From: Trigonopsis variabilis
Lineage: Eukaryota > Ascomycota > Trigonopsidomycetes > Trigonopsidales > Trigonopsidaceae
Direction: 5' to 3'
DNA: 64,000 nt
Assembly (NCBI GenBank): GCA_003707065.3
Contig: PPXM03000011.1
Location: forward strand, 124,001-188,000
The position numbers and the translations under genes are program-made. This document shows positions 8,785 through 23,728 of the stretch, piece after piece. How positions within the stretch are numbered: the stretch's first letter is position 1; every line of letters starts with the position of its first letter. The notes beneath the pieces were generated by a model. That model ran no database searches and was not told the DNA's origin. It was given only the letters and a program-made list of their open reading frames with translations.

Positions 8785-8856
8785 CTCCGAAACGGGGAAT
8801 TGAACCCCGGTTTGCCCGGTGAGAGCGGACCGTGCTAGCCACTACACTATTTCGGA
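8785..8856 (-). tRNA. tRNA-Glu (CTC)
   Basis: 72 nt without intron. The acceptor stem is TCCGAAA/TTTCGGA with discriminator G. The anticodon arm GTCCG-CTCTCAC-CGGGC gives anticodon CTC, reading GAG. The T arm is GGGG-TTCAATT-CCCC. The D region TAGTGTAGTGGCTAGCAC resembles yeast tRNA-Glu. It is divergent from the tRNA-Ala gene, with about 100 bp between their 5' ends. Confidence 0.95.
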
Positions 8857-8957: not shown

Positions 8958-9029
8958 GGGCGTGTGGTCTAGGGGTATGATTTTCCTTTCGCATAGGAAC
9001 GGTCATCGGTTCGAGTCCGGTCTCGTCCA
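8958..9029 (+). tRNA. tRNA-Ala (CGC)
   Basis: 72 nt including discriminator A. The anticodon stem-loop TTCCT-TTCGCAT-AGGAA gives anticodon CGC, reading GCG. The acceptor stem has the G3:U70 wobble pair that identifies alanine tRNAs. Its start (GGGCGTGTGG) and end (CTCGTCCA) match yeast tRNA-Ala as I remember it, including the unpaired 6/67 position. The D arm (GGTCTAGGGGTATGA) is more proline-like. A T-run terminator follows at once. Confidence 0.93.
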
Positions 9030-20310: not shown

Positions 20311-21643
20311 GGTGGTCAGTCTTTATCAGCCGACACGTCACACCTGTCAACGGTCCCGTCAGCTATGGCAAGAGACAACTAAACTGAAACACTCCAGTTT
20401 ATGCCTTGAAAGCATGTGACTCTTGGGATATATTACCTGAATTGAACCACTAATATCGCTCTATTTTTGCTCCATGGATCTTCTTCTGGGATCTTGATGA
20501 CACTTTCGTTAGTCTTTGGAGGGCTGTGGAAACTACTCTGATTTCGCTTCTCCCTTTTTCTGTATTGCTCCGGCTACAGCCATCTGTGAATGCGCTGTAA
20601 TCGCGTCCAGCTTTAAATGAGCTGTGCGCAGAGTCCCGTGGTGGTCTACAGAGGAAACAGAATGAAAGCTCGGCTTTGTAAACAACCCATTTTCACTAGC
20701 ATCATTATAATAGAGCCGTCCTGTAGTTCCAGATCCTGAGAGTGTATATGACTTGCAAGAAGAAAAGAAAGACGGAATTGTTCCAGATGACCTTGGTTTC
20801 AGTAATGCTTCAAAGCCTACTCACTGTTACTCAAACTAACCCAGTGTAATCACAGTTTTGGTGGTTTCCTTTTCTTTGGAATAGCCGACGATTATCTCGA
20901 AAGTTGATGATTTTCTTTTGGTCACGAGACGGCAATTTCCTATTTAGGAATTTGTAGCAGATGAGATATTGGACAACCGTGCCTCGTCTGTGCTTTCATC
21001 TTTCTCTTTAGACATTGCTCTCTCTTCCGGGGTCGTTTTATAGCAAATAATGCCTAAATCATATGGATCACGATATGAGGACCATGGGAAGAAAGGAATA
21101 AAAGGAACCCCATAGTCCATCAACACCCTTAACCGTCTTGAAATGCTCTTGTTATGCGGTTGGGTGTGCGTGACAAAATTCACCTATTGCAACTTCTCTG
21201 TTTCATTCATAATCTTTCATTTAGTCACATGTTAGAGTCAACTATCTCTCAAGATTTTGCCCTATGCGTGTTGCCCATTCAAAGGGCCCATATTAGCTTT
21301 AGATATAAGATATTGGATTCGGTAAGGAAGAACATATACGTGAAGTCTGATCTAAGAAAGCCACGCCAAGCATGTCCTCTCCTACTTGAGCTAGCAGCCA
21401 TGTTCAATATCTATAGTCGCGACTCTGATCTCCTCTTTCACATAGTCGACCGTAACAATAGATCAACAGGATTTTCCAGGTCAAGGACGCGTTGCACGCT
21501 CTTGGCTATTTCGAACTAAGGAGCTTGACCTGCCGGCCTGGGAGGAGCGTGGGTCACGTGTAGAAAGGAATTGCTGGGAGTTAGTGGACTCCCAAGTCAT
21601 CTTTGCTTGGCTTGTCTAAAATTTTAAGAAATTTCCATTACCC
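20311..21643. other. 1.3-kb intergenic region, BNA4 / MAP1
   Basis: A long AT-rich divergent interval. It contains a minus-strand open frame at 20944-21183 (79 codons, GTG-initiated, containing YGVPFIPFFPW and a charged C-terminus) that could be an exon of an unrecognised small gene, and an unrelated plus-strand frame at 21154-21519. Neither resembles a known family, and they overlap only slightly. No RNA gene or repeat was recognised. Confidence 0.35.
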
Positions 21644-23021
21644 ATGTCAAAGGTCACAAAAGAGATCCACCCGTGTTCAGGGAAAGAATGTGAGAATTCT
21701 GCCTCTACGCTGCAATGTCCAACTTGTTTAAAGATGGGCAAGCACTCGTATTTCTGCGGGCAAGATTGCTTCAAAAAGTATGGTTTCAAAACAGTGGCGA
21801 ATATCTAACAACAGGAACTGGGTAAGTAGTACGTAAAGTGTTTTGTTATTCTTGTTTTTTGTGTTATTTATTTTTGAGGACGGTTCTACAGGATGTTGAA
21901 ATCGTGGTGTGACTCGACCAGGCAAAGGCGATTTTGCGGAATGATTCTCTAACTTATAGTCAAACCATAAAGCTGTCCACCAGGAAGCCGCCGTCAATGA
22001 ATCCTTGCTGGAGAAGTTCAAGAACATCACTTCACTGTCGAATAGACCGGGCCCTGTCGATCCAGTGACTGGACACTATAACCCATTTCCAAACTACAAG
22101 TTCAGAGGCAGTGTTCGGCCTGTATATCCTTTGTCTCCCAAACGAAGCGTGCCAGAGAGTATTGTCCGCCCAGATTATGCGGAGACCGGCATACCTGTGA
22201 GCGAGCAGCGGATATGGAGGAGTACCAAGGTGCGAGTCCTGAGTGCCGACGAAATTGAACGAATGCGAAAAGTGTCGAAACTAGCTCGGGAAGTTCTTGA
22301 TATTGCCGCCGCCGCAGTCAAGCCTGGCGTAACCACCGACTATCTCGACGAGGTCGTCCACAATGCATGCATAGAACGAGGAGCGTATCCTTCGCCTCTG
22401 AATTACTACCAATATCCTAAAAGCCTGTGTACATCCGTTAATGAGATTATCTGTCATGGCATTCCGGACCAAAGAGTTCTCGAGGACGGAGATATTGTTA
22501 ACTTGGATGTCACTTTATATAAAGATGGCGTCCACAGCGACTTGAACGAGACTTACTACGTCGGAGAGAAGGCAAGGACAGACCCTGATACCGTTAACTT
22601 AGTCGAAACCGCGAGGGAATGTTTGGATAAGGCGATCGAGATTGTTAAACCTGGAGTGCTATTCAGAGAGTTTGGTAATGTCATAGAACAACATGCCACC
22701 GAACAGAATTGCTCGGTTGTGCGAACTTATGTGGGCCACGGAATCAATACTTTGTTCCATCCTCCTCCCAATATTCCTCATTATGCAAAGAACAAAACGC
22801 CTGGTGCTGCAAAGGCCGGCATTACCTTCACAATCGAGCCCATGATCAACCAAGGAAGCTATAAGGACTGTCGATGGCCCGATGATTGGACCGCATCCAC
22901 GCTAGATGGGAAAAAGAGCGCGCAATTTGAGCATACTTTACTGGTGACCGACGACGGAGTGGAGGTGCTTACTGCGCGGACAGCAACGTCTCCCGGAGGA
23001 CCCATTCCACGAATTTCATAG
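21644..23021 (+). CDS. MAP1: methionine aminopeptidase 1, with a 7-nt microexon
   Basis: Three coding exons: 21644-21777, a 7-nt exon at 21815-21821 (GAACTGG) and 21960-23021, 400 aa. It removes the initiator Met co-translationally. The N-terminal ribosome-associated zinc finger is HPCSGKEC, CPTC and FCGQDC followed by CFKKNW and NHKAVH. Its final Trp comes from the microexon and its last two His from exon 3, so the microexon is needed to join frame and motif (AA|G AAC TGG|TCA). Introns are 37 nt and 138 nt. The pita-bread catalytic domain shows metal ligands in NLDVTLYKDGVHSDLNETYYVG, the His in YVGHGI, and FTIEPM. The family's usual length is just under 400 aa. Confidence 0.95.
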
Positions 23022-23128
23022 ATGTGACAATAGCAAATACAATGTTGGAGATCACACACAAGGTGTCATATTACAATCATACAATGACTCCAAGTAAATG
23101 GAGATAGGGCGAGACGGGCGGGAAGAGC

Positions 23129-23728
23129 TTAATAGCCTTCGTCTTCACGGATCAACGCCACGATCATAGAGTAGAGGTAAAAGAAGAACATCAATAAGTG
23201 GAAGGCCAGCTTAATGAAGCTTTCCTTTTTATGTTTATTCAATGTCCGGAAAATTTCTGTGGCATCCAAAAGATAGGTCTTTTTGACAAACCTTCAAGTT
23301 AGCAAGATAAACAACCTTCCAACACGCACTTGTTGATGTTAAAGGCCAACAGAGGAAGGTTGAGAACAAAAGATCCCCAATAACCATTAATCAAAAATAG
23401 AAATGATAGAAAGGCTTGGATTCCGGCTTCTGGAATGATGTACTGGGGGTTAGTAGGGTCAAAGAGACAACTGTATTTACCCAATTGAGGCGGTTACACA
23501 AGTCAATGGGATTGATATAATCTCATGTTAACGCATTTCAGGATCGATTCTTACCACACTCTGTTTGTTAGGACCGTCATCGGCATTGATAGACTTACCC
23601 AAGTCGCTATACATGATAGTGAAGAAAACTTGGAGGAAAAGATTCACAGCATTTGCTAAAACAGCAAATAGAAAAAGCCTATGGTCAGAGAGATAAGCTG
23701 CCCTGACTTACCAGCCCTCTCCATTCAT
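23129..23728 (-). CDS. ERV14: ERV14/cornichon cargo receptor, with a 6-nt microexon
   Basis: Six coding exons (23728-23712, 23678-23599, 23560-23555, 23521-23481, 23442-23330, 23291-23129) give 139 aa with introns of 33-38 nt. This COPII cargo receptor moves transmembrane proteins from the ER to the Golgi. Joining exon 2 (ends GAC TTG G), the 6-nt exon AGTGTG and exon 4 (AT TAT ATC) yields [15 protein letters not shown], the conserved cornichon stretch SDLECDYIN. Skipping the microexon loses Glu-Cys but keeps the frame. Hydrophobic segments are [19 protein letters not shown], the segment around [18 protein letters not shown] with LNLPLLAFN, and [20 protein letters not shown]. The C-terminus is REDEGY. 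Confidence 0.95.

Follow-up and report, generated by a model that had tools for sequence, protein, structure and literature searches.

A 7-nt microexon in the zinc finger of MAP1, and further microexons, in Trigonopsis variabilis

The MAP1 gene and its microexon

The window analysed here is a 64,000-nt stretch of Trigonopsis variabilis DNA (contig C11, 124001-188000; the genome comprises 11.35 Mb in 15 contigs), and coordinates are those of the window unless a contig is named. Its gene for MAP1, the eukaryotic type 1 methionine aminopeptidase, which removes the initiator Met of new proteins, lies on the + strand and consists of three exons. Exon 1 (21644–21777, 134 nt) leads from the start codon to CFKK(AA), the first part of the C6H2 finger, the region through which MAP1 docks on the ribosome, and a genome profile search places a PF15801 match over it (C11:145674-145778). 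The second exon is the microexon GAACTGG (21815–21821, 7 nt, phase 2 to phase 0), which supplies the rest of the K codon and the N and W of CFKKNW-SNHKAVH. Finally, exon 3 (21960–23021) encodes SNHKAVH, the linker and the M24 catalytic domain and ends at the stop codon. Intron 1 (21778–21814, 37 nt; GTATGG...CTAACAACAG) has CTAAC-AACAG at its end and an intron score of 10.2, while intron 2 (21822–21959, 138 nt; GTAAGT...CTAACTTATAG) has CTAAC-TTATAG and a score of 8.4. Both are GT-AG introns, and the distance from CTAAC to the intron end is 5 nt in the former and 6 nt in the latter. Direct reading of the sequence and splicing of the gene thus confirmed the coordinates that a sequence-only reading had given for an exon GAACTGG between a 37-nt and a 138-nt intron.

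The spliced product has 400 aa, in which a zf-C6H2 finger (PF15801, 70.5 bits) is followed by a Peptidase_M24 metallopeptidase domain (PF00557, 152.6 bits), the domain order that identifies a MAP1. Its alignment with a solved MAP1 chain spans product residues 7-388, and the finger profile has a single matching place in the whole genome. Identity to relatives in Pezizomycotina and Lipomyces is mostly 61-66% among the matches listed; in the first-listed match, at 51%, much of the catalytic part is duplicated within the protein. By its sequence, GAACTGG qualifies as a coding microexon in that it is no longer than 15 nt, lies between two GT-AG introns with branch sites and encodes the residues expected from homologues.

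The frame and the last part of the finger had been said to depend on GAACTGG, and this held when we enumerated the splice models (GT/GC-AG introns of at least 20 nt, donors at 21740-21959, acceptors at 21760-21991, middle exon of at most 60 nt). An intact finger is encoded by none of the 234 two-exon models and by one of the 3,740 three-exon models, the GAACTGG model. Skipping the microexon does shift the frame, as had been predicted, with a stop after 80 aa, and the finger score falls to 52.4 bits (inclusion gains 18.1 bits). Keeping an intron ends the frame early as well, with a 54-aa product for intron 1 and a 51-aa product for intron 2. Homologues agree with the spliced form: in the best 120 of 7,998 MAP1 homologues found, the spacing CxxxC[FY][KR]xxWxxHKxxH with W in the same position occurs 120 times, and 116 of these 120 also match a stricter finger pattern limited to the N-terminal 140 residues. 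None of these 120 best-listed proteins has an insert at the microexon site of the kind that would betray a mis-predicted intron.

A gene finder trained on other introns of the contig, with the whole MAP1-ERV14 region excluded, chose this microexon and a second one in the neighbouring ERV14 gene in all three rounds, the third of which altered other ERV14 exons. The seed introns of the first gene-finder run had included one ERV14 intron, not beside the microexon, and later rounds were retrained on their own predictions. When 258 kb were scanned for splice signals, the MAP1 pair ranked best with a score of 21; a pair scoring at least 20 was found in 1 of 12 shuffled strands and in neither of two reversed or complemented ones, and the ERV14 microexon is absent from the list that the scan produced. 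Splice signals alone are thus insufficient, and it is the coding match that excludes chance.

Splicing of the MAP1 microexon and rival readings

The predicted introns with scores above 5 (n=157) have a median length of 37 nt; CTAAC is present in 79 of them, and 142 have 5-8 nt between branch site and intron end. By this measure MAP1 intron 2 is longer than usual for the genome. Introns as tiny as these make intron definition likely, and a failure of splicing would then be expected to appear as a retained intron. We consider, with a probability of roughly 0.8, that GAACTGG is a true coding microexon, belonging to the one gene in which the MAP1 finger was found, that it is contained in essentially all productive mRNA and that its flanking introns are removed sequentially by intron definition. 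What was observed directly is how the exons are arranged, that this arrangement is the only one to yield an intact finger, and that microexons recur in this genome; that the exon is constitutively included, that the introns leave in a particular order and that they are recognised by intron definition is what we infer.

According to this model, each tiny intron would be recognised across itself, with U1 at the 5' splice site and Prp40 as the bridge from there to the factors at CTAAC-AG (branch-site protein, U2AF), so that the size of the exon would be irrelevant to the pairing. A 7-nt exon would be too short for definition as an exon, and because two spliceosomal complexes are not expected to fit on 7 nt at the same time, the introns would leave in turn. 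The 37-nt intron would probably go first, followed by the 138-nt intron, whose GTAAGT site is strong. The microexon would be included by default, and failure would yield the 54- or 51-aa products of intron retention instead of exon skipping. A protein with four FF matches, which we infer to be Prp40, is encoded at C1:513616-514821. In yeast, Prp40 links the 5' splice site to the branch-site protein, and a worm microexon loses its PRP-40 dependence when a flanking intron is very short (PMC8378409); a review describes intron definition as thought to be prevalent at smaller introns, with an efficiency independent of exon length (PMC8624252).

Readings that dispense with the microexon fare poorly. 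If one intron ran from 21794 (weak donor GTGGCG) to 21959, the gene would be open and in frame as CFKKYGFKT-SNHKAVH, but this reading loses the W, adds three residues to the finger loop where 120/120 best-listed homologues have the normal spacing, and brings the finger to 55.5 bits instead of 70.5; we give it almost no credence, and a two-exon gene with this donor was rejected for its finger spacing. An alternative exon inside the 138-nt intron was rejected as well, since the remaining 3,739 three-exon models all fail to give the finger. That an assembly error or a pseudogene merely mimics a microexon is barely conceivable, given that the gene is otherwise undamaged (product of 400 aa, M24 at 152.6 bits) and that the 7 nt encode the expected residues. 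The arrangement is also not a stwintron, in which a donor, branch site or acceptor of an outer intron is broken up by an internal one: the two MAP1 introns share none of these elements, and 7 coding nt separate them. A different possibility accepts the microexon and lets it limit MAP1 output, one flanking intron being removed inefficiently or under regulation because both spliceosomes cannot sit on 7 nt. Either intron, if retained, meets an early stop (54 aa, 51 aa), and the cgs2 microexon of fission yeast is said to behave in this way by steric occlusion; both MAP1 introns, however, score well (10.2 and 8.4), and inefficiency would be costly in a housekeeping gene, so we regard this limit as unlikely.

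The sequence-only reading had gone further and proposed a possible on/off switch. Skipping under some conditions would then shift the frame and abolish MAP1, and the 80-aa product would probably be a target of nonsense-mediated decay. The frameshift and the stop after 80 aa are real, and a MAP2 gene is present (365 bits), so MAP1 might be dispensable at times and its loss tolerated, which renders a switch possible without arguing for it. A glucose-responsive 20-nt microexon in a Trichoderma zinc-cluster regulator offers a further parallel (PMC11121469). That source, however, reports zero reads joining the flanking exons, so that the alternative there is not plain skipping either. Tiny introns favour intron definition, whose failure is retention, and four of the eight microexons that we regard as supported in this genome are multiples of three, so a frame-shifting programme is not visible. 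Regulatory elements were not found either: an Rfam search over 21500-23100 gave no match, MAP1 intron 2 is no more stably folded than shuffled versions of it (z-score -0.07), and the region 21740-22000 is, if anything, less structured than expected (z-score +1.68; 196/200 shuffles fold at least as well). On these grounds a structured RNA or an Rfam family member within or beside intron 2 was rejected. The switch by skipping was thus not upheld, and we hold it to be very improbable; at the MAP1 locus the sequence argues for routine inclusion and against an enzyme switch.

Further microexons in the genome

A second, independent microexon within 2 kb had been claimed, and it is borne out by the ERV14/cornichon gene (23129–23728, - strand), which is convergent with MAP1, has five introns of 33-38 nt and encodes 139 aa. 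Its microexon AGTGTG (23555–23560, -, 6 nt) lies ~1.7 kb from that of MAP1 and supplies EC in SDL-EC-DYINP, between an upstream intron of 38 nt (23561–23598, -) and a downstream intron of 33 nt with the branch site TTAAC (23522–23554, -). The cornichon score is 174.0 bits with the exon and 158.8 bits without it. In the best-listed 120 of 1,267 homologues found, the EC residues are present in 104 and replaced by EV or ES in 5, and the pattern is unmatched in 11 (3 by substitution, 8 with other sequence there). Up to ten of these 120 proteins carry inserts of 15-67 residues beside EC, 3 of them after E and 7 after C, with double counting possible. These inserts look like introns retained in the annotations of other fungi, so an intron near the EC site is probably old, and their reading frames, as far as proteins can tell, suggest an intron position inside the AGTGTG microexon. 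The locus tags of MAP1 and ERV14 are consecutive in Zalerion maritima and Thielaviopsis punctulata (names as in the source). The two genes are possibly an old ascomycete pair.

Six more microexons bring the supported set to eight (MAP1, ERV14, ARP3, VPS13, DUF846, carrier-like and two in a COX6C-like gene), and these cases elsewhere in the genome lend support to the earlier suggestion of a spliceosome that tolerates microexons. The ARP3 microexon ACAA (L018; C8:283582, -, 4 nt) is flanked by introns of 43 and 48 nt; the gene finder had started at an inner ATG, and with the first exon placed by hand the product aligns with solved Arp3 through MDNGTG. A 9-nt exon raises the VPS13 score from 393.8 to 413.9 bits, and a 13-nt exon raises that of a DUF846 gene, presumably TVP23, from 162.5 to 182.4 bits. 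The 7-nt microexon of the carrier-like gene was accepted on frame only. Outside the window, the COX6C-like gene (C11:27404-27863, +, 61 aa) has introns of 35, 38, 39 and 162 nt and two microexons of 6 nt each, CTATCG (C11:27500-27505, +) and GTACGG (C11:27614-27619, +). Its Pfam score is borderline (21.9 bits, cut-off 22) and falls to 13.6 bits without the first microexon; skipping the second creates a stop. A protein homologue search with the COX6C-like product gave no matches. GTACGG itself resembles a donor site.

These cases were assembled by two routes. The pattern of branch site, acceptor, 1-15 nt and GTAAGT occurs at 23 places, and the same pattern read backward occurs at 86, so that the pattern shows no enrichment and is by itself no evidence. 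The gene finder placed a microexon at 7 of the 23, of which we counted five (MAP1, ARP3, DUF846, VPS13 and carrier-like) and omitted L004 (8 nt) and L017 (4 nt) for their weak flanking introns. In the 258 kb, 8 of 99 predicted internal exons are at most 15 nt long, two of them of length zero; MAP1, ERV14 and the COX6C-like CTATCG were counted, one zero-length call was replaced by hand with GTACGG, and four short calls (C11:11652, 95431, 100870 and 151424) were omitted. Dividing the five pattern cases by the GTAAGT share (21/157) and the CTAAC share (79/157), a rough calculation that assumes independence, extrapolates to 74 exons of at most 15 nt genome-wide (Poisson range 24-173) against ~4,350 extrapolated internal exons. 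Nine ubiquitin-conjugating-enzyme loci, picked from 22 exon matches and including one model with an internal stop, contain no exon of at most 15 nt among 14 predicted internal exons (smallest 29 nt), which rules out microexons throughout the genome.

The genome may be rich in microexons. A wider and rather doubtful proposal is that it holds an unusually large set, from tens to more than 100, of 4-15-nt coding exons in housekeeping genes, flanked by near-minimal introns of 33-40 nt, that the output of MAP1, ERV14, ARP3 and COX6C would need obligate sequential intron removal, and that global changes in spliceosome activity might tune these genes jointly via intron retention. In a small gene that we take to resemble COX16, two complete introns, 34 nt and 35 nt long, are predicted to lie back to back, without an intervening exon (C11:11618-11686, +); a recursive splice site, a twin intron and a misprediction are all possible.

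Comparison with described microexons

One close parallel is the cgs2 microexon of fission yeast, for which Romfo et al. reportedly found in 2000, by mutation, that splicing proceeds by intron definition and that failure takes the form of intron retention. Like MAP1, cgs2 is an ascomycete gene with short introns and a tiny internal exon for which intron definition is expected; it is a different gene, however, and its exon was tested by mutation whereas that of MAP1 is known from sequence alone. Microexons as such are already described, and those of fungi can be as short as a single nucleotide: the 1-nt exon of Fusarium CYP621A was confirmed by reads and in 20 orthologues (PMC12940212). That case resembles ours in being an ascomycete exon of ultra-small size within a conserved motif, inferred by phase mismatch against homologues, and differs in that one read-confirmed nucleotide stands against exons that measure 4-13 nt here and come from several genes of a single genome, read from the DNA.

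The nearest regulated fungal precedent that we met is the Trichoderma Xlr2 microexon (PMC11121469), which likewise encodes part of a zinc-binding domain; it is 20 nt long, belongs to a regulator gene and is glucose-dependent, whereas we found no sign of regulation in the sequence around the MAP1 exon. Plant microexons of 1-15 nt are mostly part of the major isoform and often missed in annotation (PMC8831610); they too are tiny coding exons, but those are conserved tags over many species, whereas the MAP1 exon was read in one genome. Stwintrons, nested spliceosomal twin introns (PMC9024468, PMC12403724), share with the model proposed for MAP1 the removal of two introns in sequence at one place; the MAP1 introns, in contrast, are separated by a coding exon, with their splice elements uninterrupted. 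A narrow literature search on microexons and methionine aminopeptidase gave one unrelated paper, so the MAP1 exon may be undescribed within the literature covered.

Annotation easily overlooks an exon of 4-9 nt that lies in a conserved motif of a housekeeping gene, and then yields a truncated or mis-spliced protein. With its introns of ~37 nt and several microexons that can be checked, a genome this small would suit studies of the minimal exon length between two near-minimal introns and of the order of intron removal. Elsewhere in the window, ARAGORN places a tRNA-Glu (ctc) at 8785-8856 (-) and a tRNA-Ala (cgc) at 8958-9029 (+), a divergent pair 101 nt apart.
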